Position numbers and translations under genes: made by a program. From Psychrobacillus glaciei (GTDB lineage Bacteria > Bacillota > Bacilli > Bacillales_A > Planococcaceae), in NCBI RefSeq assembly GCF_008973485.1, contig NZ_CP031223.1, forward strand, positions 1,054,001 through 1,118,000: a DNA stretch of 64,000 nt, in the 5' to 3' direction. Positions 1,001-55,391 of this stretch are shown here, one piece after another (within the stretch, counting starts at the first letter, position 1; every line of letters starts with the position of its first letter). The notes under the pieces are model-generated. The model searched no databases and was not told where the DNA came from. It saw only the letters and a program-made list of their open reading frames with translations.

Positions 1001-1388
1001 GAGTTTGCGATACGCAAGGTTGAACTTGCGTTATCGAGGCTTTAATTTGCGTTATACCAAGTTGAATTTGCGATAAGCCCACTCCTCCATGGAAAATCCC
1101 CTTGAGTTTGCGATACGCAAGGTTGAACTTGCGTTATTGAGGCTTTAATTTGCGTTATGCCAAGTTGAATTTGCGCTAATCACGTTCCTCCATGGAAAAT
1201 CCCCTTGAGTTTGCGATACGCAAGGTTGAACTTGCGTTATCGAGGCTTTAATTTGCGTTATACCAACTTGAATTTGTGATAAGCCTATTCCTCCATGGAA
1301 AATCCCCTAAGTTTGCGATACGCGAGGTTGAACTTGCGTTATCGCAGCTTCAATTTGCGTTATGCCAAGCTGAGTTTGCGTTACTCTC
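1001..1388. repeat. Array 1: four 103-bp units of TTGCG words at 21-bp pitch
   Basis: Near-identical units start at 1001, 1104, 1207 and about 1309. Inside each unit the word TTGCG (usually followed by WTA) starts at exact 21-bp steps: 1005, 1026, 1047, 1068; 1108, 1129, 1150, 1171; 1211, 1232, 1253, 1274 (TTGTG); 1313, 1334, 1355, 1376. A 39- or 40-bp step, carrying CTCCATGGAAAATCCC, joins successive quartets. The array fills the gap between convergent degU and the NERD gene. Every reading frame I followed meets stop codons (for example CTTTAA before TTTGCG), so it does not look coding. Function unknown. Confidence 0.95.
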
Positions 1389-1406
1389 CTTATACCCTAG
1401 GAGTCA

Positions 1407-2333
1407 TCAATTCCTTTTAGGAGAATAGTATCGCCAGGCACCGCCTTTGTGCACATTTAAATTCAAACTTTTAAGCATGCGAGATGCTGAGTAAATGGAA
1501 TCGATTTTACAAAAATGGCGAAACTCTTTGTTTGAAATCTCTTTACTAATTAGCCAAAAGTATTCTTGTACTGTTTGACGATGTGCATTTCGTGCATTTT
1601 TCTTACATGATGGGCAATTCCATGTTCGCTCTAGACGCTTCATGCCCAACACCCCACAAAACGGGCATTCAACTCCGGGCATCAAAACTTTAGGTGGGAT
1701 ATGATAGTGTTCACATAATGGGGGATAAGTGAACGGGGTTTGCTCCGTTTGAATCACAAGCTCAATCGTCTGCAACTGCTCAGTAGATAGCGGAAGGGAA
1801 TTGGAATGGTTGTACATCTGAATCACTTTTTCATTCATACTTTCTAATTTTAAAAAAGGGTAGTGCTTAGGCTTTTGCCGAATTCTACACGACTTGGCTG
1901 TCATAATAACAGCACCAGTCACTTGCATGCTCGGGAAACCTGTTCTAAAATAATCCTTTATAAAACGAATATGCTTCATAAGTTGAAAATAAGGATTAGG
2001 CAACGAATTCTCTTTTTCATCCTCCGTGACTTTATAAAACTCCTCCGTTTCCAAATCGACAAACAAATCGCCGCTATAATTTTTCGACTCCAAAACGATA
2101 AAACAACGATCCGTCACAACAAGACAATCTATTTGTACTTTCCACTCTCCAATAGACAGGCTCACATTCGGGAAAATATTCACTAGTCCCGCTAATCGCA
2201 ACTCATCAAGCTTTCGAACTAGCCTATTCTCTCCGCGATCACCAGCTTCCATTTTTCTAATTTCATCTTGTATAAAGTCAACGGTTTGCACATCAGATAT
2301 TCTCTTCAATAATGCATGATGTTCTTTCCTCAA
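1407..2333 (-). CDS. NERD (nuclease-related) domain protein with zinc ribbon
   Basis: Predicted 308-residue cytoplasmic protein. Residues about 30-150 match the NERD domain pattern: G-x-x-GE (GDRGENRL), then IDCLVV and IVLESKNYSGDL, which correspond to the D and E-x-K nuclease-fold positions. Near residues 220-245 two CxxC pairs (CPFCG and CPSCKK) form a likely zinc ribbon. NERD proteins are common in Bacillus; their biological role is not established. The start is a TTG at 2333 (minus strand), preceded by GGAGGTG at 2339-2345. It converges on degU across array 1 and is probably monocistronic. Confidence 0.8.
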   Translation of the reverse strand: MRKEHHALLKRISDVQTVDFIQDEIRKMEAGDRGENRLVRKLDELRLAGLVNIFPNVSLSIGEWKVQIDCLVVTDRCFIVLESKNYSGDLFVDLETEEFYKVTEDEKENSLPNPYFQLMKHIRFIKDYFRTGFPSMQVTGAVIMTAKSCRIRQKPKHYPFLKLESMNEKVIQMYNHSNSLPLSTEQLQTIELVIQTEQTPFTYPPLCEHYHIPPKVLMPGVECPFCGVLGMKRLERTWNCPSCKKNARNAHRQTVQEYFWLISKEISNKEFRHFCKIDSIYSASRMLKSLNLNVHKGGAWRYYSPKRN

Positions 2334-2461
2334 AAATTCACCTCCAATCTACCTACATCATATAATCATTTAATAGAAAATTCTACCTATTTAAAATGGA
2401 ACTAATTAATTGAGTTTTCGTCTTAGTTATGACAAAATAACCTCAGCAGGAGGAGAATTGA

Positions 2462-3037
2462 ATGAAACTTATACACCTATTAATACTTGCAGCAACTGTA
2501 TTAGCACTTGCTGCTTGCAATAGCAATGAAGATAAAGCAAAAACTGCAGGATCCGCTAGCGATAATGCGCCTTCCAATGCCCAATCGGTGACAGATCATG
2601 GGGCAAAAGATAAATCTCAAGTAGGCTTCCAAATGGCTGGAGGCAATATTGAAGAAGCGATGAATGTCCCGAAAAAAGCAAAAATAGCTATTATTGAGGC
2701 TTTCAACGAATACATGGACGCATTTAATGAAGAAAATATTGACCGCTACATGAAGACAATCTCCAAAAAACCAGAAGGCTTCAACTATGAAACGGAAAAA
2801 AGCGATGTACAAGCTGCATTCAAGGAATATGACATTACACGTACCGCAGAAAATACGACGATCATTCAATACGATGAAAATAACGCACAAGTATTTGCCA
2901 ACCTAAATACCAATCTCGTACAACCATCGACGGGTGCAAAACTCGAACGCAATGGACGTCAAGTCACTGTATTCGTCAAAGAAGACGGCAAATGGCTTGT
3001 CACAAGCGTCTACTTTATGATGGAAACATCCAAATAA
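2462..3037 (+). CDS. Predicted lipoprotein with NTF2-like domain
   Basis: Predicted 191-residue lipoprotein. A type II signal peptide ends in the lipobox LAAC, so C19 would be lipidated and the protein anchored outside the membrane. A low-complexity linker (residues 20-70) precedes an alpha+beta domain (about 75-190) with the pattern of NTF2/SnoaL-like folds: a helix with AFNEYMDAFNEENIDRYM, then strands ending in EDGKWLVTSVYF. The ATG has an AGGAGGAG site at 2449-2456. Comparable extracytoplasmic NTF2-like lipoproteins occur in bacilli without assigned function. It is flanked by the divergent NERD gene and a terminator, so it looks monocistronic. Confidence 0.75.
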   Translation: MKLIHLLILAATVLALAACNSNEDKAKTAGSASDNAPSNAQSVTDHGAKDKSQVGFQMAGGNIEEAMNVPKKAKIAIIEAFNEYMDAFNEENIDRYMKTISKKPEGFNYETEKSDVQAAFKEYDITRTAENTTIIQYDENNAQVFANLNTNLVQPSTGAKLERNGRQVTVFVKEDGKWLVTSVYFMMETSK

Positions 3038-3040
3038 CAA

Positions 3041-3072
3041 AAGCCCCTCGATCATGTCGATGGGGCCTTTTT
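3041..3072 (+). terminator. Rho-independent terminator after the lipoprotein gene
   Basis: A stem of AAGCCCCTCGA against TCGATGGGGCCTT closes on a small loop and runs into a T tract. It starts 4 nt after the stop codon. Confidence 0.9.
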
Positions 3073-3136
3073 ACTATTACATTTAAACTAAATATTCAGT
3101 AAACTAGTAATAGTACAAAAAGTCAGGAGATAGCCC

Positions 3137-4465
3137 ATGGACAAAAAACTACAACAATTTTTAACTGGCCGCATATGGCTTCGCGAACACACCCCATTCC
3201 CGCCCGAAGTCATCGACGCCCACATCGACAGCGGTCATATCCACCTCAAACCCGGCATCATCACACACACCCATAACTTTTTCTTTTGGCAATTAAAGAA
3301 GAGCTTCTGTAACCGATGCCACAACACAAACCAACACTTATTTCACACATTTGACTGTGCTCGCTGTAACCAAAAATGTACCTATTGCCGCCATTGCATA
3401 CGGATGGGGCGGGTGAGTAGTTGTTCAGAGTTACTTCTTTGGGACAAGCATCATGCTCGCGGCGCGAACGCACACATCTTCGACTGGAGCGGCCAACTAA
3501 CACCGCTTCAACAAAAAGCAAGTGAAGAGCTTCTCACAAGTGTCCAACAAAATAAATCCCACCTCCTGCACGCAGTTTGTGGAGCGGGAAAAACAGAGCT
3601 ACTCTTCCCATCTATTTTCGCATCATTACAAGAAGGAAAACGAGTTTGCGTCGCAGCTCCTAGAACAGATGTCATCCTAGAACTTTTCCCACGGTTCCAA
3701 AAAGTATTCCCGAAAACGAACATACACGCACTATACGGAAGTGCTCCAGACCAGGATGGATTTGCCGAACTGGTTCTAGCAACTACGCACCAGCTCTACC
3801 GTTTCGAAAACACATTCGATGTCGTATTTGTCGACGAAGCAGATGCCTTCCCGTATTACGCGGACGAAACATTGAGACGAGCTGTCACGAAAGCGACGAA
3901 AAAAAATGCTGCCATTCATTACGTAACTGCCACTCCTACCAAATCATTAAAAACAACTAACCAATCTGTACTTTCCCGTAGGTATCATGGACATGACCTA
4001 CCAGTTCCAACATACAGCGCACTATGGGGGTACACACGTAAATTGAAAAAAGGAAAAATCCCAACTAAACTTCAACAATGGATTGAAGATAAAACAAAAA
4101 ATAATATCCCATTTCTCGTTTTCTTACCAACAATTGAAATGCTTGAAAACTTCCCTGAAAATTTACCGAGAGTTCATGCAGAACATCCGGATCGAAAAGA
4201 GATCGTTATGCAACTTCGTGAAAAGAAAATACCAGGTCTACTTACGACAACCATTTTAGAACGAGGCATTACGATTGAGAATGTCCACGTAGCGGTAGTA
4301 GGAGCAGAACAGAAAATATTCACTTCGAGCGCACTCATTCAAATTAGTGGCCGAGTTGGACGCTCATTCAAATACCCGGACGGTGATATCGTCTTCTTCC
4401 ATCACGGCATTACCCATGAAATGGATAAAGCAAAAGCCGCAATCGAAGGGTGGAACAAAGAATGA
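3137..4465 (+). CDS. comFA: Competence DNA-uptake ATPase ComFA
   Basis: Superfamily 2 DEAD-box-type helicase/translocase of 442 residues that helps drive transforming DNA into the cytoplasm. A cysteine-rich zinc module lies at residues about 58-96 (CNRCH, CARCNQKCTYCRHC). It is followed by Walker A (CGAGKT, 148-153), the DEAD motif (VDEAD, 232-236), motif III (TATPT) and the C-terminal helicase signature ending in ISGRVGRS. The length is close to B. subtilis ComFA (463). The ATG at 3137 has an AGGAGAT site. It overlaps comFC by 4 nt. A 9-bp inverted repeat (3072-3080 with 3107-3115) lies upstream and might be an operator. Confidence 0.93.
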   Translation: MDKKLQQFLTGRIWLREHTPFPPEVIDAHIDSGHIHLKPGIITHTHNFFFWQLKKSFCNRCHNTNQHLFHTFDCARCNQKCTYCRHCIRMGRVSSCSELLLWDKHHARGANAHIFDWSGQLTPLQQKASEELLTSVQQNKSHLLHAVCGAGKTELLFPSIFASLQEGKRVCVAAPRTDVILELFPRFQKVFPKTNIHALYGSAPDQDGFAELVLATTHQLYRFENTFDVVFVDEADAFPYYADETLRRAVTKATKKNAAIHYVTATPTKSLKTTNQSVLSRRYHGHDLPVPTYSALWGYTRKLKKGKIPTKLQQWIEDKTKNNIPFLVFLPTIEMLENFPENLPRVHAEHPDRKEIVMQLREKKIPGLLTTTILERGITIENVHVAVVGAEQKIFTSSALIQISGRVGRSFKYPDGDIVFFHHGITHEMDKAKAAIEGWNKE

Positions 4466-5085
4466 ACTGCTTAATATGCGGAAGTATCTTTCAATCACCT
4501 CCTACTTGGAGAAAGTTATTTATATATGAAATAGAGCCGACAGCCTGTAATCGATGTCTAAGTAAATTCGAGAAAACTTCCCCTGAAATTGATTTCTCGG
4601 ATTTTCAAGGAACCTATTACGAGGGGGCGGTCGATTCAGTCACAACTTTTTACACCTACAAAGAAGCGATGAAAAGTTATTTACATCAATATAAATTCTT
4701 GCAAGATGTAGCACTCGCACAAGTATTTGCAGATGAACTTCGCCATGTATTCCAAGCTAAAGAAGGAATAGTCGTCCCAATTCCAATGCATCCAGAAAAG
4801 CTACTGCGCAGAACTTTCGCTCAAGTAGATGAACTGTTAAGTTGCGCGGGAATCCCTTTCAAACAATTACTCGCTAAAACAGAGACAAATGAGCAAGGGA
4901 AAAAGACAAAAAAAGAACGGTTAGAAGCAAAATCACTATTTAAAGTAATAGATAAAATAGAAGCACAAAACTATCTTTTATTCGATGATATCTACACAAC
5001 TGGTACTACTATTCATCATGCTGCAAAAGTATTAAAGGAAGCAGGTGCTAAAAGAGTCGATGCGATTACTTTAATAAAAGGATAG
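4462..5085 (+). CDS. comFC: Competence protein ComFC, phosphoribosyltransferase-like
   Basis: ComFC/GntX-family protein of 207 residues. Two N-terminal CxxC pairs (MNCLICG and CNRCL) make a zinc finger. The C-terminal phosphoribosyltransferase-type domain carries the PRPP-loop motif LLFDDIYTTGTT. ComFC acts with ComFA in natural transformation and binds single-stranded DNA in studied homologs. The chosen ATG at 4462 overlaps the comFA stop as ATGA and gives the typical start MNCLICG; an in-frame GTG at 4450 is possible but lacks a well-placed Shine-Dalgarno site. Confidence 0.92.
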   Translation: MNCLICGSIFQSPPTWRKLFIYEIEPTACNRCLSKFEKTSPEIDFSDFQGTYYEGAVDSVTTFYTYKEAMKSYLHQYKFLQDVALAQVFADELRHVFQAKEGIVVPIPMHPEKLLRRTFAQVDELLSCAGIPFKQLLAKTETNEQGKKTKKERLEAKSLFKVIDKIEAQNYLLFDDIYTTGTTIHHAAKVLKEAGAKRVDAITLIKG

Positions 5086-5130
5086 ATTGCCGATATATAG
5101 GAGGAGATATTGAACCAAGGAGGATCTACC

Positions 5131-5535
5131 ATGGGAGAACTGAAAAATTGCCCTTCCTGCGGCGAATTTTTTAACTATACAGGACTAAGAGAAGTATGTA
5201 ATAACTGTGCAATGAATGAAGAAAAACTATATGAAGTTGTGTACCGTTTCCTTCGTAAACGTGAAAATCGTGCTGCTACTGTCGAACGAATCGTTGAAGT
5301 AACAGGCGTGGAAGAATCCCTTCTACACAAGTGGGTTCGAAAAGGCCGACTACAACCAGCCATGTTCCCAAACCTCGGCTACCCATGCGACAATTGTGGA
5401 AAATTAACCATTCAAGGAAAACTATGCAAAGGGTGTACAGAAGAGTTTAAATCCGGCCTCCGTCAATTAGACGCCGCTTTAGAATTCCGAGAAAAAGTGA
5501 ACACCCACGAAAATACCTATCATAAACAAAAATAA
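5131..5535 (+). CDS. yvyF: Flagellar operon protein YvyF
   Basis: YvyF-family protein of 134 residues (TIGR03826-type). It has an N-terminal zinc ribbon (CPSCGEFF then CNNCA), a central MerR/excisionase-like helical stretch (TVERIVEVTGVEESLLHKWVRKGRL) and a second zinc ribbon (CDNCG then CKGC). Its function is not established. In Bacillus it always sits between comFC and flgM, as here. The ATG at 5131 follows AAGGAGG at 5118-5124; an upstream in-frame TTG at 5110 is less well placed. Confidence 0.88.
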   Translation: MGELKNCPSCGEFFNYTGLREVCNNCAMNEEKLYEVVYRFLRKRENRAATVERIVEVTGVEESLLHKWVRKGRLQPAMFPNLGYPCDNCGKLTIQGKLCKGCTEEFKSGLRQLDAALEFREKVNTHENTYHKQK

Positions 5536-5558
5536 CTCCCACCTAATATAGGAGTTTC

Positions 5559-5607
5559 AGACTGTAGGCAAACTCGATAAAAATTGAGTTTGTCTACAGT
5601 CTTTTTC
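5559..5607 (+). terminator. Terminator of the comF-yvyF transcript
   Basis: A 17-bp imperfect stem (AGACTGTAGGCAAACTC with GAGTTTGTCTACAGTCT, one mismatch) is followed by a T run. A smaller AACTCC/GGAGTT hairpin (5534-5556) precedes it. Nearly the same hairpin occurs at 48803-48852. Confidence 0.88.
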
Positions 5608-5713
5608 TTATCTTCCCGCTCTAGCGTACCTGTGACAGACTCAATTGTTCCCCAAATTGTGGCTGACACGGGACGCGGGTTTACACATTCCATATATTTC
5701 ATCTAAATTAATC

Positions 5714-5740
5714 TAAACACTTCAAAATTCTAACCGAAAT
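5714..5740 (+). promoter_or_regulatory. Sigma-D-like promoter of the flgM operon
   Basis: TAAA at 5714-5717, a 15-nt spacer, then ACCGAAAT at 5733-5740, which matches 6 of 8 positions of the sigma-D -10 consensus GCCGATAT. It lies 44 bp upstream of flgM, where B. subtilis also has a sigma-D promoter. Confidence 0.75.
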
Positions 5741-5783
5741 AACCTATAGACACTTCTTATAGAAGAAGGGAGGACTAAAAAAC

Positions 5784-6047
5784 ATGAAAATTTCAAATAT
5801 ACCTTTAAACCAAGTAAATCCATACAAACGCAACCAGCAACAAACGGAAAAAGCACAAAACACACCAAAACCAACAACCGATCAACTAGAAATTTCATCT
5901 GCAGCAAAAAACATGCAAATAAAATCTCCAATTGAAGTAGAACAAGCAGAACGAGTTGCTGCTATAAAAGCAGATATCGATGCAGGAACATACAAAGTAG
6001 ATGCGAAACAACTAGCATCGAACATCCTCAATTATTACCGTATTTAG
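5784..6047 (+). CDS. flgM: Anti-sigma-D factor FlgM
   Basis: FlgM of 87 residues, the usual size. It binds sigma-D and is relieved when the hook-basal body is complete. The N-terminal half is polar and probably disordered (Q/T/P-rich). The C-terminal half has the typical sigma-binding helices (ISSAAKNM, then VAAIKADIDAGTYKVDAKQLASNIL). A GGGAGG site precedes the ATG. It is the first gene after the sigma-D-like promoter and is followed 15 bp later by flgN, so the sigma factor's own inhibitor is in its regulon. Confidence 0.93.
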   Translation: MKISNIPLNQVNPYKRNQQQTEKAQNTPKPTTDQLEISSAAKNMQIKSPIEVEQAERVAAIKADIDAGTYKVDAKQLASNILNYYRI

Positions 6048-6062
6048 AAGGAGCTCAAAAAC

Positions 6063-6557
6063 ATGTCCATCGAAAAAATTTTGCAAGCTCTAACGAAACT
6101 TGAAAAGCTGCACAAAAGTTTACTAGAAATTGCATACAAAAAAACAGAAGCCATCAAAACCGGGGACATGGACAGTCTAAACCAACTGCTCAAGGACGAG
6201 CAGGCACATGTAGCAGGCATTTCTCAACTGGAACATCAGCGTCAATTAGAGGTAACGGATTACCTTCGAGCAAAAGGAATTGCTCCTACTGACAACCCAA
6301 CTGTTGCACTAGTTTTAGAAAATACCAACACAGACGAAGAAAAGGCTCTGCTTGGGGCAGCACGTAACAAGCTCCTACTTACTCTAGAAACACTAAGACA
6401 CCAAAACGATCTAAACCAAAAACTAACTCTCCAATCATTACAATTCGTCAACTTAACACTAGAAATGTTACGACCGAAGCCAGATCAAATAAACTACTCA
6501 AAAACCGAAGTAAAAGGTCCCTCACAAGACAAAACCTACTTCGACTCACAAGCATAA
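6063..6557 (+). CDS. flgN: Flagellar chaperone FlgN
   Basis: FlgN-family protein of 164 residues (YvyG in B. subtilis). It is almost entirely helical, with a central coiled-coil-like region (residues 5-130). FlgN is the cytoplasmic chaperone for the hook-filament junction proteins FlgK and FlgL, which are encoded immediately downstream. The ATG has an AGAAGGAGCT site. It lies 12 bp from flgK. The family call rests on helical character, size and position; the primary sequence of FlgN is poorly conserved. Confidence 0.85.
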   Translation: MSIEKILQALTKLEKLHKSLLEIAYKKTEAIKTGDMDSLNQLLKDEQAHVAGISQLEHQRQLEVTDYLRAKGIAPTDNPTVALVLENTNTDEEKALLGAARNKLLLTLETLRHQNDLNQKLTLQSLQFVNLTLEMLRPKPDQINYSKTEVKGPSQDKTYFDSQA

Positions 6558-6569
6558 GGAGGCGAACCC

Positions 6570-8108
6570 ATGGGCTCCACATTTATGGGACTAGAAGCAA
6601 GTAAACGCGGACTTACAACACAACAATCCGCACTGTATACAACGGGACATAATATTTCAAACGCAAACACAGTAGGGTTTTCACGCCAACGTGTAAACAT
6701 GCAAACATCTCTACCTTACCCTGGAATGGGTCTAAATGCAGCAAAAGTTCCTGGATTTATTGGAACGGGCGTCGAAGCACAATCTGTTCAACGTATACGA
6801 GATCAATTCATTGACCGCCAATTTCGTCAAGAATCTAACAAACTAGGATACTGGGAAACAAAATCTAATGCGATTTCCCAGATGGAAGATATTCTCTCAG
6901 AACCATCTGATTTTGGTTTAAACACATCGTTAGATCAGTTTTGGAAGTCGCTTCAAGATTTAAGTACTAATCCAGAAAATGCTGGTGCACGAAAAGTAGT
7001 CGTGCAAAGAGGTATTGCAGTTGCAGAATCATTTAACTATATCAATAAACAATTGACGGATATCCAAGGGAATTTAAAGAATGAAATTCGAGTTTCAACA
7101 AATGATGTGAACTCTATATTGAAACAAATTGCATCCATTAACGAGCAAATTCAACAAATTGAACCTAATGGTTATATGCCAAATGATTTATATGATACTC
7201 GAGATACTTTGCTGGATGAATTAACTACCTATTTCCCAATTGAATTAGAGTATTCTAAATCAGGCGGAAACGCACTGGCGATTGCAGAAGGCACAGTAAA
7301 GGTATCTATTAAAACAAACAGCGGATTAGTTGAGGTAGTAAATGGAAAAGATGCTGTAACTTTAAAGGCGGATGGTTTAAATAATGATAATAGTTTTGAA
7401 CCTTTTACTCAGTTTACGGTGGAAGGTAAGGGAAATATAAAAGGAGGAACAATTAGTTATAGCGATTTAGACAAAAGTAAAGGTAAATTGCTAGCAACCA
7501 TTGACTCTTATGGATATACAGATAAAAGTGTTACGACAGGATTTTATCCTGAGATGCTTAAGAACTTAGACGATATGGCTGCTGCTTTCGCTAAAAAGTT
7601 TAACGAAATACACGGAGGTGGTACTGATTTAAACGGTGATGTTGGTAAAGACTTTTTTGTTTCTAAAACGGGTAGTCCTATATCAATATCAGCAAGTACT
7701 ATTTCTGTAGATTCTATTTTTGAAAGCGAGCCGTCTTTATTAGCTGCCTCTTCATCCACTGGAAAAGAAGAGGGGAATGGGGCAAATGCATTATTACTTA
7801 GTAAGATGAAATTCGATCCTTTAACGATTGGTTCCGCAACAAATACTACTGTACAATCTTTCTATCAATCTATCATTGGTAAACTTGGAGTTGATGGTGA
7901 ACAAGCAAATCGATTGGCTTATAATTCAGCTACAATTAAATTAACAGTGGAGAATAATCGTGCTTCAGTCAGTTCTGTTTCTTTAGATGAGGAAATGACG
8001 AATATGATCACATTCCAACAAGCTTATAATGCCTCTGCTCGTATGATTACTGTAATAGATGAAACATTAGACAAAATTATCAACGGTATGGGACGAGTAG
8101 GACTATAA
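6570..8108 (+). CDS. flgK: Flagellar hook-filament junction protein FlgK (HAP1)
   Basis: FlgK of 512 residues, close to B. subtilis (507). The N-terminal rod/hook signature includes SALYTTGHNISNANTVGFSR. The C-terminal heptad-type region (SLDEEMTNMITFQQAYNASARMI) forms the terminal coiled coil with the N terminus. It is exported through the flagellar type III apparatus and caps the hook for filament growth. The ATG at 6570 follows AAGGAGG at 6557-6563, which overlaps the flgN stop codon. It is 16 bp upstream of flgL. Confidence 0.95.
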   Translation: MGSTFMGLEASKRGLTTQQSALYTTGHNISNANTVGFSRQRVNMQTSLPYPGMGLNAAKVPGFIGTGVEAQSVQRIRDQFIDRQFRQESNKLGYWETKSNAISQMEDILSEPSDFGLNTSLDQFWKSLQDLSTNPENAGARKVVVQRGIAVAESFNYINKQLTDIQGNLKNEIRVSTNDVNSILKQIASINEQIQQIEPNGYMPNDLYDTRDTLLDELTTYFPIELEYSKSGGNALAIAEGTVKVSIKTNSGLVEVVNGKDAVTLKADGLNNDNSFEPFTQFTVEGKGNIKGGTISYSDLDKSKGKLLATIDSYGYTDKSVTTGFYPEMLKNLDDMAAAFAKKFNEIHGGGTDLNGDVGKDFFVSKTGSPISISASTISVDSIFESEPSLLAASSSTGKEEGNGANALLLSKMKFDPLTIGSATNTTVQSFYQSIIGKLGVDGEQANRLAYNSATIKLTVENNRASVSSVSLDEEMTNMITFQQAYNASARMITVIDETLDKIINGMGRVGL

Positions 8109-9015: not shown

Positions 9016-9021
9016 TAAATA

Positions 9022-20422: not shown

Positions 20423-20469
20423 CTGCGCGTAAGTGAGTCTATATTGCGAGAATGGAAGATTAAGTTGCG
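20423..20469. repeat. Array 2: three TTGCG-type words at 21-bp pitch
   Basis: CTGCG at 20423, TTGCG at 20444 and TTGCG at 20465, each start exactly 21 bp from the last. It lies in the gap between a chemoreceptor terminator and the DUF2269 gene. Confidence 0.75.
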
Positions 20470-21062: not shown

Positions 21063-21602
21063 TTGTGTTATCAGGATTTAAATTTGCGCTACGGGGTAAT
21101 GAACTTGCGAAAAGCAGTCAACAAGGTGAAATTGTGCTTTGAATTTGCGATATAGAGAGATGATCTTGCGCTACGCGAGCTTTAATTTGCGTTACGGGGT
21201 AAGGAACTTGCGAAAAGCGGTAGACAAGGTGAAATTGAGCTTTTAATTTGCGATATAGAGAGTTGATCTTGCGCTACGCGAGCTTTAATTTGCGTTACGG
21301 GGTAATGAACTTGCGAAAAGCGGTCGACAAGGTGAAATTGAGCTTTGAATTTGCGATATAGAGAGATGATCTTGCGCTACGCGAGCTTTAATTTGCGTTA
21401 TGGGGTAATGAACTTGCGAAAAGCGGTAGACAAGGTGAAAATGTGCTTTGAATTTGCGATATAGAGAGATGATCTTGCGCTACGCGAGCTTTAATTTGCG
21501 TTACGGGGTAACGAACTTGCGAAATCCAGTGGACTAGGTGAAATTGTTCATGATCTTGCTATTCACAGAGACGAACTTGCGATTAGCAGCCATAATTTTG
21601 CG
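21063..21602. repeat. Array 3: TTGCG words at 21-bp pitch with 103-bp superperiod
   Basis: Words start at 21063, 21084, 21105; then quartets at 21145-21208, 21248-21311, 21351-21414 and 21454-21517 (each 21-bp steps); then a degenerate tail at 21556, 21577 and 21598. Quartets are joined by 40-bp steps, giving a 103-bp unit exactly as in array 1, although spacer sequences (GATATAGAGAGATGATC, CTACGCGAGCTTTAA) are different. It separates the DUF2269-like gene from the ilvD promoter. All frames I followed contain stops. Confidence 0.95.
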
Positions 21603-23601: not shown

Positions 23602-23639
23602 ACGCCAAAGCGAACTTAATTAACATAATATTATAAATC

Positions 23640-23935
23640 ATTGATGAGGCAAAAGTTAGAGGAAACTTGTATTTACAGAGAGCTGGTGAAGCTGGGAACC
23701 GGCAATACAACCTTTAGCGACATCCCCTCGGAGTGAAGTATTGAACGGGAAACCTTTTAGATACTTCCGGGTGTAGTAAAAGCTACTCTCGTTATAAATG
23801 GATGGCTGGCATTTGCTAGTTGTCTGCGAGGTAGCGGTTGCGCTACGAACTAGGGTGGTACCATGAAAAGAATTTCATCCCTATACAAAAGAACGAAGGT
23901 TTCTTTGTGTGGGGAGAAATTCTTTTCTTTTTTTA
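23640..23935 (+). ncRNA. T-box riboswitch leader of ilvB-ilvA operon
   Basis: Stem I elements are visible (AGAGAGCTGGTGAAGCTGG). The T-box AGGGTGGTACCATG is at 23852-23865, with TGGT available to pair the uncharged tRNA end. A terminator formed by AAAAGAATTTC...CCC and GGGG..GAAATTCTTTT is followed by T-rich sequence to about 23935. The T-box overlaps the terminator's 5' arm, giving the antiterminator. The specifier codon is either ATC (Ile, 23722-23724), which I favour from spacing to GGAGTG, or CTC (Leu, 23727-23729). Confidence 0.93.
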
Positions 23936-33383: not shown

Positions 33384-33531
33384 TTGCGAATAAAGATGGA
33401 AATATTACGACTAACGTACAAAACATTGCGAATACTACTGATAATGTTGCAAGTACGCCTATTTTGCGATTAGGGACATTGATCTTGCGATTTGAAGTGA
33501 GTATTTTGCGATTATGAGACTAAATCTTGCA
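33384..33531. repeat. Array 4: two quartets of TTGCG-type words at 21-bp pitch
   Basis: Words at 33384, 33405 (TTACG), 33426, 33447 (TTGCA), then after a 17-bp step 33464, 33485, 33506 and 33527 (TTGCA). Within each quartet every step is 21 bp. It lies between the ilv-leu terminator and catE. Confidence 0.9.
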
Positions 33532-34561: not shown

Positions 34562-34631
34562 GGCAATCATTTCCCAGACGAGAGCAATCAACCCCCATAC
34601 GAAAGCAACCATTCCTCATTCAAGAGCAACC
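34562..34631. repeat. Array 5: four AGCAAYC words at 21-bp pitch
   Basis: GGCAATC at 34562, AGCAATC at 34583, AGCAACC at 34604 and 34625, each exactly 21 bp apart. The word is the reverse complement of GGTTGCT used in array 8. It lies between convergent catE and the SDR gene. Confidence 0.9.
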
Positions 34632-39537: not shown

Positions 39538-39680
39538 GATTTCCGTTTCAGGTGGACGCGTTCCGCGGGGTGAGCGAAGAGGAACGAAGGCTAAGAGCGC
39601 CACATCGTGTAGCCACGCCTTCGTGACTAACATTCTGTTGGCCTCCGTCTGGAGTCGCCACCTTTCACTACAATCCACTT
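39538..39680 (+). repeat. Dispersed element, copy A
   Basis: Starts GATTTCCGTTTCAGGTGGACGC, continues TTCCGCGGGGTGAGCG, and ends CTGGAGTCGCCACC with CACTACAATCCAC. The same ends occur in copy B (54810-54970) and, inverted, copy C (55449-55577). From memory, elements with these flanks are widespread between genes in bacilli. It contains no plausible gene. Confidence 0.75.
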
Positions 39681-44005: not shown

Positions 44006-44042
44006 AAACGAGATGCCCAGAAAGACAGGGCATCTCGTTTTA
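44006..44042 (+). terminator. Rho-independent terminator of secA-prfB
   Basis: AAACGAGATGCCC pairs perfectly with GGGCATCTCGTTT around a 9-nt loop and runs into T residues. Confidence 0.93.
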
Positions 44043-44054
44043 TTAAAATGGAGG

Positions 44055-44167
44055 AATCGGTCGGATAAAGCCAACAATCGGTCGAATACGTCCGATAATC
44101 GGTCGAATATAGCTAACAATCGGTCGAATATGTTCGATAATCGGTCGAATACATCCAACCATCGGTC
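44055..44167. repeat. Array 6: six AATCGGTC words at 21-bp pitch
   Basis: AATCGGTC starts at 44055, 44076, 44097, 44118, 44139 and, with one change (CATCGGTC), 44160. Every step is 21 bp. The next bases are usually GAATA; the remaining bases vary. It lies between the prfB terminator and the YitT-family gene. Because 21 is a multiple of 3, both strands read as seven-residue repeats, which I take to be a by-product. Confidence 0.93.
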
Positions 44168-44293
44168 AAAAAATACGAATCTAATGTTCTTTATCCTTTT
44201 AATACGCCGCTTTACTGAAGTTCACAAACTTCCCTCCTGTTGTTATACTAGTTCGGGCATCAATCAGAAAATTTATTAGAAAGAGGATAAAAT

Positions 44294-48802: not shown

Positions 48803-48852
48803 AGACTGTAGTCAAACTCGATAAAAGTTGAGTTTGTCTACAGTCTTTTTTC
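48803..48852 (+). terminator. Terminator of ftsEX-peptidase operon, same hairpin as at 5559
   Basis: AGACTGTAGTCAAACTC pairs with GAGTTTGTCTACAGTCT, then a T run. It differs from the hairpin after yvyF by only a few bases, loop included. Confidence 0.9.
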
Positions 48853-48937
48853 AAATAAATTGAAATTTAATTATTGGATAGCCTAATGCTAATATAGTTG
48901 CAGGATCTTTTTGCATCTTCTCTATATATAGAGAAAT

Positions 48938-49028
48938 GGTTGCTTTGGTTTCACATTTGGTTGCTCTCACAGTGAGGCTAGTTGCTCTCAGTGGAGAAAT
49001 GGTTGCTATCACTTTACTAATGGTCGCT
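48938..49028. repeat. Array 8: five GGTTGCT words at 21-bp pitch
   Basis: GGTTGCT at 48938 and 48959, AGTTGCT at 48980, GGTTGCT at 49001 and GGTCGCT at 49022; all steps are 21 bp. CTCTC or TATC often follows. It is in the gap between the M23 peptidase gene and the ResA-like gene. The rest of that gap (49029-49240) shows no other structure. Confidence 0.92.
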
Positions 49029-49245
49029 CTTCACCATTATTTCCCTTTACCAGTACTTCATTTACATGAACAAAACTCTTCTCAGAAAAGATAGCACATT
49101 TATTCAGCTGAATAAATGATTTTTCGGGATTCATAAAGTTAAAACAACATATTAGTATTCTCCTTGGGGTTAAGCATATAATAGGAGCGGTGGAATAATC
49201 TTAAACTCTTTTAGCGGTTGCAAACTAATTGGAGGGGGAAAAGCT

Positions 49246-49818: not shown

Positions 49819-49886
49819 CCGATTTTTGTGCGAGTATTAAACTCCAATCTTTTCACATATATTAGTGGAAAAGTAGGAGGTATAGC

Positions 49887-51305
49887 TTGCGCAAAAGTCG
49901 GATTTTTTTATATGTTTTTTTGTTTATTATTTTGCTTGGCGTAGTTTATTTTTGGATGGGAAAATCTTCAACGAAACAACATGAGGCTATTAGTAATAAT
50001 CAAGTAATTGATGAGGCGTTTCAATTGATTAAACAAGAAGCGGTATTTTCAAAAAATGATAAGCAAATCGTAGAAGGTGCAATTCGTGGGATGGCACAGG
50101 CTCTAGAAGATCCACATAGTACGTATTTAACGGAAGAAGAAGCAACCGCACATGATGCATCTCTTGCTGAAGAACGTGTTGGAATCGGAGCAGAAATAGC
50201 AATTTCAGATGGAAAATTTATCGTAGTTGCGCCACTGAAAGATTCTCCTGCATCTAAAGCAGGTTTGAAACCACAAGATGAAATTGTTCGAGTAAATGGC
50301 GAGAGACTCAACGGTAAAACTTTGTCAGATCTGGTAAAAATGTTAAGTGGAGAAAAAGGAACGAGTCTCAAAATGACCGTTTATCGTTCAAGTGAGGAAC
50401 GGCATGTGGAATTACATATGAAACGGGAAACGATTGCCATGCATTCAGTTTCGAGTGAAGTATATGAAGTGGATGGATATTCGATTGGAATTGTTGCCAT
50501 TTCGATATTTGGAGAAAAAACTGGTGAGGAATGGAAAACACAAACAAAAGCATTAGTGGATAGAGGAATAGATGGACTTCTTATAGATGTAAGAGGAAAT
50601 CCAGGAGGTTATTTGTTTAGCGTGTCTACCATTGTTAGTACGTTACTTGAAAATGGGAAGACGTTTGCTTATATGCAAGATCCAAATGGGGTGCTTGAGA
50701 TGCTAAACACGGAAAGTAAGGAAAAGCCTTATTTGAATAAAATTCCTGCCGTATTATTGCAAAATGGGAACAGTGCTTCTGCTAGTGAAGTTTTAGCTGG
50801 AGCATTAAAAGATAATAAACGTGCGATGATCGTTGGAGAAACAAGCTATGGTAAAGGTACTGTACAAGAAACACATCCTCTTTCAAATGGGGGGAAACTA
50901 AAAATTTCCACGCATAAATGGCTTACACCAAAGCAGGAATGGATTCATCACAAAGGAATTCAAGCAGACTTGAAAGTAGAGCCAAATGAATTGTACACGA
51001 TGGATGTTAAATATCCACATGGAGAATTTAGAGTGGGAGATTATGGAGAAGAAATAAAGTACGCTCAAAATATACTAGCTGCTTTAGGATATAATATTGT
51101 TCGAAGAGATGGTTATTTTGATGAAGATACGATGAAGGCAGTAGAAAAATACCGTGAAGAAAGTAAATTAGAATCTAATAAAGAAATAGATGATGTATTC
51201 TTCCAATCACTTTCTAAAAAGATAAGTGACTATAAAGATCGAAAAGAAAACGATAAGCAATTACAGATGGGAATAAGTTATTTAATTCATGGCTTGAAAA
51301 AATAA
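49887..51305 (+). CDS. ctpB: Carboxyl-terminal processing protease CtpB (S41)
   Basis: PDZ protease of 472 residues. An N-terminal transmembrane anchor (about 5-23) is followed by a PDZ domain (about 95-175), then the S41 core with S298 (NSASAS), K323 (SYGKGT) and Q327 as the Ser/Lys/Gln triad. A C-terminal peptidoglycan-binding helix bundle (YAQNILAALGYNIVRRDGYFD) ends it. In B. subtilis CtpB cleaves SpoIVFA to trigger sigma-K activation during sporulation. The start is TTG at 49887 with GGAGGT. minJ follows, as in B. subtilis. Confidence 0.93.
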   Translation: MRKSRIFLYVFLFIILLGVVYFWMGKSSTKQHEAISNNQVIDEAFQLIKQEAVFSKNDKQIVEGAIRGMAQALEDPHSTYLTEEEATAHDASLAEERVGIGAEIAISDGKFIVVAPLKDSPASKAGLKPQDEIVRVNGERLNGKTLSDLVKMLSGEKGTSLKMTVYRSSEERHVELHMKRETIAMHSVSSEVYEVDGYSIGIVAISIFGEKTGEEWKTQTKALVDRGIDGLLIDVRGNPGGYLFSVSTIVSTLLENGKTFAYMQDPNGVLEMLNTESKEKPYLNKIPAVLLQNGNSASASEVLAGALKDNKRAMIVGETSYGKGTVQETHPLSNGGKLKISTHKWLTPKQEWIHHKGIQADLKVEPNELYTMDVKYPHGEFRVGDYGEEIKYAQNILAALGYNIVRRDGYFDEDTMKAVEKYREESKLESNKEIDDVFFQSLSKKISDYKDRKENDKQLQMGISYLIHGLKK

Positions 51306-51391
51306 GATTATTCTAAAATCCTATACGCAAAGTCCCTCCCTTTTGTTACAATAATAGAATGGATAGTCTGTAAGAGAGGGGGGTGCGTATA

Positions 51392-52555
51392 GTGGAGGAT
51401 ATTTTGATAGATTTGGCTAAAGGAATAGGAGTATTTTTTCTACATCCTGCAGTATATATTACGCTTCTTTTCTCTATATTAATTGGTTATTTTCGTGTGA
51501 AGAGAGAAAGAAAACATTTCCGCACTAGAATATTATGGGGTTGGACAGAGTTCAAGCATTTACTCGATGGGTATGTCTGGGCAATAATCCTTTCTGTTCT
51601 TAGTGTAGCAATAGGTCTTGTCGTTCCATCTTCTTGGTTATTTAGTTATAGTGCGTGGATGATTTTATTTATATTACTATTTGTGTACCAACTTGGTTCT
51701 GCCATTTATGCGATGGCACTGGGAGCTATTACATTGTATGTGATGAATAGGTACGATTGGTCTTTTCATATTTCTTCATGGAATTTTACTGGATTTAATA
51801 TTATGCAAGAAGCAGTTGTTCCAATAGCAATTTTAGCTGGCTTGTTATTAATTGTGGAAGGTATTCTTATACAAAAGAACGGAGCAGCAAATGCCTCTCC
51901 GAAACTAGTGAAAACAGCAAGAGGTAGCGAAGCAATTGAATATGTAACGAAACGATTGTGGTTATTACCTGTTTTACTAGTTATACCTGGAGAAGTCATT
52001 TCTACCTATCTCCCATATTGGCCGCAATTTAGATTGGGAGAATCAACATTTTCACTGATTTTGTTTCCATTTGTCATTGGATTCCAGCAAAAAAGCAGAA
52101 GAGCATTGGCAGTGGAGTTTTTCCCTCGCTATGGAAAACAAGTTTGGCAATTAGGGATAATAATCCTAGTTATAGCGGCAGTAGGGTATATTATGCCGCT
52201 AATTAGTGGGGTTGCTTTAATCATCGGGGTTATTGCTAGATTATTACTTTCATATATTGCCTATAAAAAAGAAACGACCGGAACTTTTGCTGTTTCTGCG
52301 CAGTCTAAAGGTGTGATGATTGCAGGTGTTTTAGAAGATTCACCAGCAGAGAAAATGGGACTTCTCATCGGTGAATGTATTGTTAAAGTAAACGGGCACA
52401 AAGTGACGAACGAAAACGAACTTTATGAAGCCGTTCAAATTAATGCAGCACACTGCCGCTTAGAAATAGTTGATGTAAGCGGAGAACTACGCTTGCGGCA
52501 ACATATATTATTCAAACATGACCATTATCGACTAGGCTTACTATTAGTTAGGTAG
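51392..52555 (+). CDS. minJ: Division topology protein MinJ
   Basis: Membrane protein of 387 residues with about six to eight transmembrane segments, the cytoplasmic motif GYFRVKRERKHFRTR and a C-terminal PDZ domain (about 295-375: GVMIAGVLEDSPAEKMGLLIGECIVKVNG). MinJ bridges DivIVA and MinD to keep division off the poles. Size (B. subtilis 397) and position after ctpB agree. GTG at 51392 has the GAGGGGGG site at a sensible 9-10 nt; GTG at 51383 abuts it and is unlikely. Confidence 0.92.
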   Translation: MEDILIDLAKGIGVFFLHPAVYITLLFSILIGYFRVKRERKHFRTRILWGWTEFKHLLDGYVWAIILSVLSVAIGLVVPSSWLFSYSAWMILFILLFVYQLGSAIYAMALGAITLYVMNRYDWSFHISSWNFTGFNIMQEAVVPIAILAGLLLIVEGILIQKNGAANASPKLVKTARGSEAIEYVTKRLWLLPVLLVIPGEVISTYLPYWPQFRLGESTFSLILFPFVIGFQQKSRRALAVEFFPRYGKQVWQLGIIILVIAAVGYIMPLISGVALIIGVIARLLLSYIAYKKETTGTFAVSAQSKGVMIAGVLEDSPAEKMGLLIGECIVKVNGHKVTNENELYEAVQINAAHCRLEIVDVSGELRLRQHILFKHDHYRLGLLLVR

Positions 52556-52563
52556 GAGGAATT

Positions 52564-52812
52564 ATGGAATCATTATCGGTATCTACACAAATAATATTAG
52601 CCATTTTTTCTCCAGCACTCCTTGTCCTATTATTTACACGAATTACATTTAATCATTATGTTGCATTAATCTTGACTGTTGCACTATTCGCAACCTCGGT
52701 CTATGCTGGCTACACGCATAAATGGTGGATCTACATGATAGATGCCGCATCTTTAACAATTGGGTTTTCGTACGTCACCCATATGAAAAAGAAAAAAATG
52801 TCCGCCTCTTAA
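52564..52812 (+). CDS. csbA: CsbA-family small membrane protein
   Basis: DUF2198/CsbA-type protein of 82 residues. Two or three hydrophobic segments include LLVLLFTRITFNHYVALILTV, close to B. subtilis CsbA (LVVLFTRVTFNHYVA as I recall it), and a basic tail KKKKMSAS. In B. subtilis csbA is controlled by sigma-B and precedes uvrB; no uvrB is here. The ATG has a TAGGAGGA site overlapping the end of minJ, so co-transcription is likely. Function unknown. Confidence 0.88.
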   Translation: MESLSVSTQIILAIFSPALLVLLFTRITFNHYVALILTVALFATSVYAGYTHKWWIYMIDAASLTIGFSYVTHMKKKKMSAS

Positions 52813-52833
52813 AATAAGAGAGCGGATTTTTTT
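52790..52833. terminator. Bidirectional terminator between csbA and azlD
   Basis: TCCGC-C-TCTT pairs with AAGAGAGCGGA; a T run follows on the plus strand and an A run precedes it, so it can serve both convergent genes. Its 5' part overlaps the end of csbA. Confidence 0.82.
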
Positions 52834-52871
52834 ACAGCTAGAACCTATGTATCTGCAATACTCAGAAACGC

Positions 52872-53180
52872 TTAAAACAATAGACTATAAACTGCTAAAA
52901 CACCAATTGTTCCTAGCACAACGACCATTACATTTGTAGAAATAATGGCTAGAGTGAATGCGACAACTGCTCCAATAACTCCAAATAATAAATTCCCTTG
53001 TTGCACATATAAAATAGCTGGGAAAATTAACGCCCCTAGGACTGCAAATGGAATATTACTCAATACACCAGAAATAACAGGGGGTAATTTTTTACCTTCC
53101 AAAAAAGTGAGTGGGAAAACCCTAGGGATATATGTAACTAGCGCCATTCCAAATATCGTCCACCAATACCAAGCACCCAT
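52872..53180 (-). CDS. azlD: Branched-chain amino acid exporter small subunit AzlD
   Basis: AzlD of 102 residues with three to four transmembrane segments and the family motif ALVTYIPRVFPLTFLEGKKLP followed by SNIPFAVLGALIFPAIL. Together with AzlC it forms a two-subunit exporter of branched-chain amino acids or analogs such as 4-azaleucine. It lies 4 nt after azlC in the same transcript. The same chromosome region makes these amino acids (21.9-33.3 kb). Confidence 0.93.
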   Translation of the reverse strand: MGAWYWWTIFGMALVTYIPRVFPLTFLEGKKLPPVISGVLSNIPFAVLGALIFPAILYVQQGNLLFGVIGAVVAFTLAIISTNVMVVVLGTIGVLAVYSLLF

Positions 53181-53184
53181 TCGT

Positions 53185-53892
53185 TTAAGCTCCTTCCGGC
53201 AAGCCTAGGCTTCTTCTTGCATAAATAATTTCGACAACTATAGATGATGCAAGCGTAGCGACTAATATAGCCCAGCCTGTTGATAATAAACCTGTCCAAT
53301 AAAAAAATCCATTTATACTGGCAGCAAATAGCGCCAGTAGCACTACTTTTCGATTACCGCGCATAGAAGGGACTAGTAACCCAACGAACATCGCATATAA
53401 AGCAATCGACATGGCAGCTTGTAAAAAGGCGGGTAGGTTAGCACCGATGATATGTCCGATAGCAGTGAATAAAACCCAACTACTGTAACCAATTAAGGCA
53501 ACACCAAACGCAAAGGAAGTGCGAACTTTATCCTCTTTTTGCGTTGCTAGTACGGAAAAAGATTCGTCTGTTATCCCAAAAGCATAAATCCCTTTAACCC
53601 ATCTTTTTTCGCTATGCATCTTTTCATTCAGCGCAGCCGTCATTAAGAAGTGACGAATATTAAGGACAAAAGTATTTAAAACGATTAAAATAGGATCCAC
53701 GCCATTTGCGATTAGTGTTAACGACATATATTGGGATGCGCCAGCAAAAACAAAAATACTCATTGCGGTTGCTTCCACAATGGAAAGCCCAGTCGTTTTA
53801 GCTAATAAACCAAATGTTAATGCAACAGGGAAATAGCCTATTGCAATACTAATCCCTGCACGTAAACCTTTTACAAATGAATTATTATTCAT
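53185..53892 (-). CDS. azlC: Branched-chain amino acid exporter large subunit AzlC
   Basis: AzlC of 235 residues with about six to eight transmembrane segments. Conserved parts are GYFPVALTFGLLA, FAGASQYMSLTLIANG and LNIRHFLMTAALNEK, then FGITDESFSV. It is the main membrane subunit of the AzlCD exporter. It starts at ATG 53892 on the minus strand, with an AAAGGGG site upstream. It is divergent from the VTT gene. In B. subtilis azlCD is under AzlB/Lrp control; no regulator gene is next to it here. Confidence 0.94.
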   Translation of the reverse strand: MNNNSFVKGLRAGISIAIGYFPVALTFGLLAKTTGLSIVEATAMSIFVFAGASQYMSLTLIANGVDPILIVLNTFVLNIRHFLMTAALNEKMHSEKRWVKGIYAFGITDESFSVLATQKEDKVRTSFAFGVALIGYSSWVLFTAIGHIIGANLPAFLQAAMSIALYAMFVGLLVPSMRGNRKVVLLALFAASINGFFYWTGLLSTGWAILVATLASSIVVEIIYARRSLGLPEGA

Positions 53893-54033
53893 AATAAGCT
53901 TTAAACCCCTTTTTAAATTCGAATGAACAAATTATACTATATATCTAAAGTTTTATACATGCGAAAATTGGGAATAATATAAATATACATATTAAGGAAC
54001 GATTAATTATTTATAACATAGAGGAGAGTCATC

Positions 54034-54660
54034 ATGCCTAGCTGGTTTTCATTTGAAACATTGACTAATTTGACACAAGATTACCGAGCACTTGGACCGT
54101 TGATCGGCCTTCTTCTACCTTTCTTAGAAGCTTTTTTACCTTTTTTGCCATTAGTCGTTTTTATTATAGCGAATGTCAATGCATACGGAATTCTATTGGG
54201 ATTTTTATTGTCTTGGATAGGGTCTGCAGCGGGTGCTTACATGGTATTTTTAGTAATTCGTAAATACGGACGAGCAAGAGCTCTAGGTTTTATTACGAGG
54301 CATGAAAGAATTCAAAAGTTAATATTATGGGTAGAGAGAAATGGTTTTGGTCCATTATTTTTACTCATTTGCTTTCCTTTTACTCCATCCGCTCTTATTA
54401 ACATAGTTGCTGGATTGTCTAATATAAAAAAGAAAACGTACTTATGGACAGTCACATTAGGTAAATTAATCATGATCTTAGTTGTAAGTTTCATCGGCTC
54501 AGACATAAAAGCGCTCGTAACCCAGCCGATCAGAACGATAATAGTAGCCCTAATTATCGTTATTCTTTGGTTTGTAGGAAAGAGTGTGGAAAAAAGAATA
54601 AATAATAAAGTAGAAGCAGACTTTATCTCTATTCACGGGGAAAGTCGAACAAAAAGGTGA
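54034..54660 (+). CDS. VTT/DedA-superfamily (TVP38-like) membrane protein
   Basis: Integral membrane protein of 208 residues with about five to six hydrophobic segments. The SNARE-associated/VTT core is recognisable: LLPFLEAFLPFLPLVVFIIANVNAYG, GSAAGAYMVFLVIRKYGR, and the reentrant RNGFGPLFLLICFPFTPSALINIVAGLS. Related proteins are lipid scramblases or undecaprenyl-phosphate flippases (DedA, PopT); which applies here cannot be told. The ATG has a GAGGAGAG site. It is monocistronic before a 1.1-kb repeat-filled gap. Confidence 0.85.
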   Translation: MPSWFSFETLTNLTQDYRALGPLIGLLLPFLEAFLPFLPLVVFIIANVNAYGILLGFLLSWIGSAAGAYMVFLVIRKYGRARALGFITRHERIQKLILWVERNGFGPLFLLICFPFTPSALINIVAGLSNIKKKTYLWTVTLGKLIMILVVSFIGSDIKALVTQPIRTIIVALIIVILWFVGKSVEKRINNKVEADFISIHGESRTKR

Positions 54661-54809
54661 CATTAGTGGAGTTTTTTTAGAGATATAAAGGTACCCAAGT
54701 GTTGATTAACCAAGGGTATCGCTCTACATTTTTCCGGTAATCGTCTTCTAGTCGCATTGCCTTTAGGAACGCAGAGTTTATAAAGTGCGCATTAGTTGGT
54801 TTTCGCTTT

Positions 54810-54970
54810 GATTTCCGCTTCAGTCGGACGCTTTCCGCCGGCATGGCTTCAGCCGCTTCCCTCGCTTACGCTCAGTCCAGGGTCTTCAGCACATGCTCCT
54901 GCCGCTTCGCTTTCGTCGCAAAATATATTTGCTATTCCGGCTGGAGTCGCCGCCTTACGCTACAATCAAC
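54810..54970 (+). repeat. Dispersed element, copy B
   Basis: Begins GATTTCCGCTTCAGTCGGACGC, then TTTCCGCCGGCATGGC, and ends CTGGAGTCGCCGCC with CTACAATCAAC. It shares ends with copy A and is inverted relative to copy C. Similarity to C extends outward: AACGCAGAGTTTATAAAGTGCG at 54769-54790 matches the reverse complement of about 55610-55630. It contains no real gene. Confidence 0.75.
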
Positions 54971-55083
54971 GTGGGTTGCCGGCTATTTAGTGAGTGCCGT
55001 CACGTGTATTTATGAGCACTCAGGATTCGTTACCACAGGATAGGCGCTGTCGCTCAAAAGATGCATGCTTATTTTTCGCTAAT

Positions 55084-55151
55084 TACAAGATAGAAGCCGA
55101 TAATCGCAAAGTAAAGTATGCTAATGGCAAGATCATATACCTAAATCGCAA
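55084..55151. repeat. Array 9: quartet of CGCAA words at 21-bp pitch (minus orientation)
   Basis: TACAA at 55084, CGCAA at 55105, GGCAA at 55126 and CGCAA at 55147, exactly 21 bp apart; the word is TTGCG read on the minus strand. It lies between dispersed copies B and C. Confidence 0.82.
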
Positions 55152-55302
55152 GATAGCTACCATTATGGGAAAATATATTGATAGTGTACCTTAATAGGTG
55201 TCATCTTACGCCAAATAAAATTTATAAATAAAGACGTTTGTCTTATAATAAAGCTTTAACTTGGCATGAAATTATTAGTATTGGGTACAAACAATTAATA
55301 TA

Positions 55303-55391
55303 TTACGCAAATGTCCAAGAACGTTGCGAGTATCACGTCCTATATTGCGCATATGCCTCTTAATGTTGCAAAAAAAGTATCCAATGTTGCT
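55303..55391. repeat. Array 10: five TTGCG-type words at 21-bp pitch
   Basis: TTACG at 55303, TTGCG at 55324 and 55345, TTGCA at 55366 and TTGCT at 55387; every step is 21 bp. Same gap as array 9 but opposite word orientation. Confidence 0.88.

Follow-up and report, generated by a model that had tools for sequence, protein, structure and literature searches.

Intergenic arrays of short words at a 21-bp pitch in Psychrobacillus glaciei and other Bacillales: putative head-to-tail binding sites

We analyzed a window of 64,000 nucleotides from the chromosome of Psychrobacillus glaciei (1.054-1.118 Mb of the 4.33-Mb contig NZ_CP031223.1), in which short words recur between genes in arrays with a start-to-start distance of 21 bp. 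Among 80 named prfB relatives retained for comparison, those of Psychrobacillus are the closest (91-93% identity). A preliminary description had claimed this pitch for nine stretches of the window, and reading of the sequence by eye together with a chain scan confirmed it in all nine (Table 1). Within an array, the words share one orientation. The first array occupies a convergent gap, 3' of the terminator of a response-regulator gene (a neighbor checked with Pfam). The 103-bp block that builds up both this array and the largest one of the window consists of three 21-bp steps and one 40-bp step, in which one TTGCG is absent. The statement that no array lies inside a gene holds for the window by open reading frame (ORF) calls, except that an 88-aa ORF (44013-44279), probably spurious, covers the array at 44055. 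The last two arrays lie in the interior of a dispersed element (54900-55750) built from a GC-rich palindromic core and inverted repeats that are long but imperfect; parts of this element recur in many of the other stretches sampled from the genome. Rfam at gathering score gave no match over this element, and a permissive Rfam search of 54850-55810 returned a chance-level match only. Elsewhere in the window, Rfam at gathering score identified a T-box leader and a Bacillaceae-1 RNA (23632-23885 and 39575-39641).

Table 1. Arrays of the window and copies of the dispersed element in other sampled loci (L numbers) of the P. glaciei genome. Weak arrays have two to five imperfect words each.
Feature	Position	Strand	Remarks
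TTGCG array, strong	999..1383	+	103-bp blocks (3.7 copies), each with 21-bp steps and a single 40-bp step
Short array, weak	20423..20469	+	CTGCG, TTGCG, TTGCG at 21 bp
TTGCG array, strong, largest of the window	21063..21602	+	4.5 blocks of 103 bp; upstream of dihydroxy-acid dehydratase gene
Composite array, strong	33384..33531	+	ATTGCG/GTTGCA-type units, then TTGCGATT units; between threonine dehydratase-like and glyoxalase genes
GAGCAACC-type array, weak, four units	34562..34631	+	Convergent gap; in other species another word or no array at this place
AATCGGTCGAATA array, strong, six words at 21 bp	44055..44167	+	3' of prfB
GAGCAACC-type array, strong	48897..49030	-	GGTTGCT on plus strand; 3' of M23 peptidase gene
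Array of about three AATCGCAAG words, weak	55084..55151	-	TTGCGATT on minus strand; within dispersed inverted-repeat element
GTTGCG-type array, weak, about five words	55303..55391	+	Within the same dispersed element as the preceding array
Copy or part of dispersed element	L043 8610-9502		
Copy or part of dispersed element	L060 6479-6991		
Copy or part of dispersed element	L035 9107-9616		
Copy or part of dispersed element	L059 9314-10200		

The 21-bp pitch is a property of the genome and of the genus. The P. glaciei genome was sampled by stretches (41 loci, 864 kb), of which 14, the window and 13 others, were chosen for their arrays and 27 were not; pattern searches alone were genome-wide. We defined an array as a chain of at least three copies of one 5-mer at a fixed step, with a score of at least 5 and at most half of it in ORFs of at least 450 nt. 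By this definition, the sample contains 22 intergenic arrays at step 21, compared with one each at 13 and 33, four each at 41 and 42, and none at any other step from 8 to 45; the arrays at 41 and 42 are harmonics. Other Psychrobacillus species (25 loci, 505 kb) yielded 24 arrays at 21, one each at 26 and 31, two at 41 and ten at 42, and two of 26 pitch-21 arrays from these species lie within ORFs of at least 450 nt. Among the locus sets used, one set of 20 stretches had at least two placed on known arrays, and two further sets were mostly selected for holding arrays. The preliminary description had named two outcomes that would speak against selection on spacing, namely the lack of a 21-bp autocorrelation peak in intergenic DNA and an equal peak in shuffled sequence. 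The peak is present in a 540-kb sample of the genome (27 stretches not chosen for arrays, containing six arrays at three loci), where intergenic 5-mer autocorrelation per 1000 is 3.70 at lag 21, 1.96 at lag 20, 1.69 at lag 22, and 2.82 at lag 42; in coding DNA it rises at each multiple of three (3.01 at lag 21, 2.70 at lag 18, 2.72 at lag 24). After dinucleotide shuffling, intergenic DNA contained no array at any of the pitches 20, 21, 22, and 25. Genome-wide, two TTGCG words at 21 bp match 72 times versus eight for the reversed pattern, three GAGCAA words (up to two mismatches) 27 times versus one in the control, and three CGGTCGA words (up to three mismatches) 24 times versus none.

The claim that the step is 21 bp almost without exception stood only in part: 21 bp dominates, but other steps occur. 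Between nearest TTGCG words in the Psychrobacillus loci, 313 steps are of 21 bp, 33 of 18 bp, four each of 19 and 20 bp, and three of 22 bp, and distances of 39-42 and 60-63 bp are sums of shorter steps. The second favored step, 18 bp, is exemplified by GTTGCGCAAACCAAAAACGTTGCG.

Comparison of one genome per species showed that three TTGCG words at 21 bp occur in all 19 Psychrobacillus genomes, in 2 of 18 other genera in the family, and in none of the 24 genomes from other families. When the search was widened to 261 genomes, all of the same family, 87 had the pattern, 68 of them outside Psychrobacillus, and 42 had the reversed control (table count), mostly with one to six matches and at most 23. 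Because the control is so frequent in the family, lone matches outside Psychrobacillus mean little; this does not apply to three genomes with 205, 261, and 368 matches (controls 0, 23, and 0). The TTGCG word itself is not essential. The prfB regions of other Bacillales genera (75 loci, 1.43 Mb) yielded 23 intergenic arrays at 21 bp, 11 at 25, nine at 20, eight at 10, four at 26, and two at 22, and none at 19, 23, or 24; 11 further pitch-21 chains lie within ORFs, as heptad coding would give. The words of these arrays include TGTCCGATAA, CTATCCGCCAAA, GTAGATAAA, and AATTGCACC, and one 20-kb stretch of a family member carries four 21-bp arrays with at least three unrelated words. Fourteen class-level control stretches (253 kb) contained no array at 21 bp, and six stretches from other genera of the family (104 kb) contained one, which resembles heptad coding.

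Other genera also carry palindromic words, such as GTGCCAGGCAC, at a pitch of 25 bp. Such 25-bp arrays, with GTGCCAGGCAC, TCAGCAGCTGA, TTAACAG, and TGTACCAGGTACA as words, were seen at five loci (L128, L129, L157, L162, and L163), mostly from Rossellomorea, and are possibly a dimeric counterpart of the 21-bp arrays. In viral contigs searched for four TTGCG words at 21 bp, 24 matches lie outside ORFs of at least 300 nt among at least 120 loci listed, and by eye most of these 24 are near-identical copies. Two viral contigs (L301 at 5985 and L305 at 6078; GC 0.50) carry TTGCGGGTTAT words at a 21-bp pitch, with spacers that differ, in DNA not covered by long ORFs; these may represent a comparable array elsewhere.

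Within the 21-bp unit, conservation is concentrated in part of the sequence. In 432 TTGCG units (273 non-redundant), sorted by the base preceding the word, most of the information falls between about -4 and +8 around the word, a footprint of roughly 13 bp. The words of Psychrobacillus lack palindromic symmetry. From a high level at the word, GC content drops in both flanks and rises again in the mid-spacer, where it exceeds that of the flanks in 33 of 46 Psychrobacillus arrays (p 0.0045). Among 441 pairs of duplicated units, differences amount to 3.7% at -1 to +4, 7.2% in the flanks, and 16.0% outside. Between duplicated blocks, the footprint accumulates changes at about one third of the rate seen in the remainder. 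By column, the values are 1.1-1.8% at -1 to +2, 9.5% and 6.6% at the two bases of the word's CG, 2.9-12.5% across the flanks, and 10-23% beyond them. The way the unit is defined slightly conditions columns 0 to +4, and columns free of this effect are slow as well (-1, 1.8%; +7, 2.9%; -3, 4.5%). Changes at the CG of the word show an excess of transitions (35/42 and 24/29, versus 57% in spacers).

The footprint was slower than the remainder in 18 of 18 array segments, clearly so in 17. These segments, each with at least 52 compared footprint positions and with identical pairs skipped, represent 17 loci (L266 counted twice), and pairs spaced by multiples of the same block length depend on each other. 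The duplicated blocks are mostly 102, 113, 103, 124, and 82 bp long, or multiples of these, and not multiples of 21; duplication is therefore not locked to 21 bp, whereas the step is.

Loci of one genome share more than chance predicts. In 56 loci from 11 genomes of other genera, hand-picked among the matches listed, flank identity is 0.59 between loci of one genome versus 0.34 between genomes, and mid-spacer identity is 0.36 versus 0.26; the within-genome excess exceeds 1000 permutations for flanks and mid-spacers alike (p 0.001). Only genomes with at least three loci entered this set; two G145 rows more than 2 kb apart were omitted, and two of its G148 rows are just 1.2 kb apart. In P. glaciei, mid-spacer identity is 0.29 between loci and 0.43 within a locus. 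Sharing of word and flank over spacers is the pattern expected of a trans-acting reader, to which descent or composition would contribute a smaller part. Outside arrays, footprint motifs occur at the level of one shuffle, so this is no ordinary regulon.

Arrays sit behind diverse chromosomal genes at many loci; they are enriched in convergent gaps and near the 3' ends of genes and depleted at divergent promoters. With gene contexts defined by ORF length rather than annotation and gaps of 150-1500 bp counted, arrays occur in 9/70 convergent, 18/295 tandem, and 1/70 divergent gaps of Psychrobacillus, and in 9/18, 11/63, and 1/23, respectively, at array-rich loci of other genera. In tandem gaps, the array is closer to the upstream 3' end in 13 of 18 cases in Psychrobacillus and in 8 of 11 in other genera. 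The threonine dehydratase-like and glyoxalase genes could both be placed in 13 species, and in 12 of these the gap between them (the site of 33384-33531) holds a 21-bp chain with three or more 4-mers, the weakest of which (G003) is degenerate; chain steps of 16, 28, and 30 bp occur there in one, three, and three species. By eye, GTTGCG-like units are followed by CTTGCGATT-like units in 7 of the 13. These gaps range from 230 to 1235 bp, and their spacers are unrelated across species. The next gap (the site of 34562-34631) has a 21-bp chain in 3 of 10 species, each with another word, a 20-bp chain in one, and none in six.

We also considered whether word direction is tied to replication and rejected this, since TTGCG words face both ways in both chromosome halves, as delimited by GC skew. 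Loci of three word types (26 in total) are absent from the region around the GC-skew switch (1.6-2.7 Mb), where 6.6 would be expected (p 0.0005); this region was picked afterwards, and of four matches excluded because they were probably coding or too degenerate, one lies within it at 2.44 Mb. An array of CCCTAAA words lies at about 2.117 Mb, within the same region.

We propose, with a probability of about 0.5, that the arrays are head-to-tail binding sites, one per two helical turns, read by trans-acting sequence-specific factors. Each array would be a row of sites for a factor encoded elsewhere in the genome, presumably a protein, one unit of which would read the footprint of about 13 bp; sites two turns apart in one orientation would align the bound units, possibly binding cooperatively, on one face of the DNA. 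Arrays would grow by duplication of multi-unit blocks, after which selection would keep footprint and pitch while spacers drift. The arrays would probably serve local chromosome structure, or insulation, in the quiet DNA that follows terminators, and not the control of single promoters. The earlier suggestion of selection on spacing, as for phased protein binding, is supported by the single pitch for unrelated words, the slow footprint, and the sharing of word and flank. Nucleoid organization or a domain boundary, as named in the preliminary description, would be possible roles. The alternation in GC content also fits AT-rich minor grooves facing a protein.

Several observations weigh against this proposal. 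No candidate factor or associated protein was found, in agreement with the preliminary description. Several words per genome, each at several to many loci, require either several related factors or one versatile factor, and many words would demand many specificities. Mid-spacers too are more alike within a genome (p 0.001), so descent or composition contributes, and some words of P. glaciei are common to several loci because the dispersed element carries arrays. Block junctions introduce steps of 18, 19, or 40 bp, and phase is thus not maintained everywhere. The mid-spacer GC excess is weak in other genera (37/58, p 0.048), and one segment (L262) shows a near-zero footprint effect (0.054 versus 0.062). 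Finally, placement at 3' ends may reflect tolerance rather than function.

In a neutral satellite, replication or repair would duplicate fixed 21-bp units, and the words would be remains of the founding unit. Strongly variable copy number, higher-order blocks indicating active duplication, and spacers that are more alike within a locus than between loci agree with such an origin, but we regard it as unlikely given the register-specific constraint, the retention of the same word classes across the genus, block lengths that are not multiples of 21, and loci that have word and flank in common without sharing spacers equally. Slippage of a fixed unit, the second option of the preliminary description, is likewise disfavored because the duplications (82, 102-104, 113, and 124 bp) are not multiples of 21 and slippage predicts no register-specific constraint; we rejected it as sole cause. 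Some transposases are known to read sites arranged in tandem, and the arrays could be internal components or remnants of a mobile repeat whose own protein would recognize the words as its end sites. In P. glaciei, at least five array loci (55 kb in the window, L043, L060, L035, and L059) lie in or between copies of the inverted-repeat element, yet most arrays, all five strong window arrays among them, lack it, spacers are unrelated between loci, and the 21-bp chain is kept at an orthologous place in 12 of 13 species, which makes this origin quite improbable.

Transcription by read-through is conceivable, as arrays lie in sense or antisense behind genes, and the transcribed repeats might bind a protein or other RNAs. 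This is very unlikely, however, given that arrays lie mostly behind terminators, that words occur in both orientations relative to the neighboring gene, and that no Rfam match was found over any array. Folding of at most the first 400 bases gave no signal in 10 of 11 arrays, the exception being the array at 1004-1383 (z about -4 on both strands), and RNA structure was rejected on this ground. Peptides with seven-residue repeats are suggested by the divisibility of 21 by three and by arrays that overlap open frames, for example one of 1056 nt covering the L197 array, but they are scarcely credible: relatives exist at pitches of 20 and 25 bp, 103-bp blocks break the frame, and none of the 22 pitch-21 arrays of the P. 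glaciei sample lies in an ORF of at least 450 nt. Coding heptads were accordingly rejected. A bolder idea, which we hold to be rather doubtful, is a fast-diversifying or programmable DNA-coating system of Bacillales that tiles DNA behind transcription units. Here, the recognized word would vary by locus and species while the geometry of one unit per two turns stayed fixed; the readers could be many one-domain paralogues or a guided binder, and the purpose could be chromosome structuring or the capture of initiators from incoming iteron plasmids.

Iterons of plasmid replication origins, which are bound specifically by Rep-type winged-helix proteins, are the nearest known system in geometry. As outlined in PMC4980987, these are short direct repeats about two turns apart, bound cooperatively by monomers, with cooperativity abolished by a half-turn shift, and different plasmids carry different iterons. 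Both are direct repeats of 17-22 bp in helical phase, and the arrays share this design with their pitch of 21 and single orientation. In contrast, iterons lie at one origin, next to a rep gene, whereas the arrays occupy dozens of chromosomal loci, with several words per genome and up to tens of units. We saw no origin or rep gene beside the window arrays, and no Rep protein among the neighboring genes scanned; plasmid records showed no similarity to the four arrays tested, and phages no match to the one array tested. Among transcriptional regulators, BldC is described as forming head-to-tail multimers on varying numbers of direct repeats with AT-rich grooves (PMC5859096), and ArcA sites as having extra repeats at 11 or 22 bp (PMC3798270). 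As far as these sources go, their repeats are mainly about one turn apart and located in promoters with a regulon, whereas the arrays are spaced by two turns, lie behind genes, and lack an excess of solitary sites. Classical promoter operators likewise differ from the arrays, which are almost absent from divergent gaps (1/70 and 1/23) and whose solitary motifs stay at shuffle level.

Among repeat families, the TAACTGA heptamers of Beggiatoaceae, Cyanobacteria, and Bacteroidetes are abundant intergenic direct repeats that form long arrays in some species; in the account of PMC4679880 they are contiguous without a variable spacer, consist of a single word, and lie mostly just 5' of start codons, unlike the arrays. 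Bacterial minisatellites (variable number tandem repeats, VNTR) resemble the arrays in being tandem, variable in copy number, and organized in higher-order blocks, but the arrays keep only about 13 of 21 bp, and their pitch is the same for unrelated words and genera. Slippage would copy the whole unit with no favored position, whereas the constraint is register-specific in 18 of 18 segments. CRISPR arrays, which are linked to cas genes, have repeats of about 23-50 bp that are nearly identical and separated by unique spacers of comparable length; the present arrays conserve about 13 bp within a fixed 21-bp unit, and their spacers are related within a locus. REP/BIME-type repeats are palindromic units forming stem-loops, in contrast to the non-palindromic words of Psychrobacillus and the lack of a fold signal in 10 of 11 arrays, although the 25-bp arrays of other genera do carry palindromic words. 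We found no description of many-word, one-pitch arrays in the open-licence literature, outside which most subscription journals fall, and within this scope the earlier statement that no described system matches still stands.

If confirmed, these arrays would constitute a class that is frequent in a bacterial family and keeps its pitch across words, loci, and genera, and they would point to a new group of DNA-binding factors. Some of the minisatellites of Bacillales would then be arrays of sites under selection. Phased cooperative binding would also become testable on natural arrays of 2 to about 50 sites.

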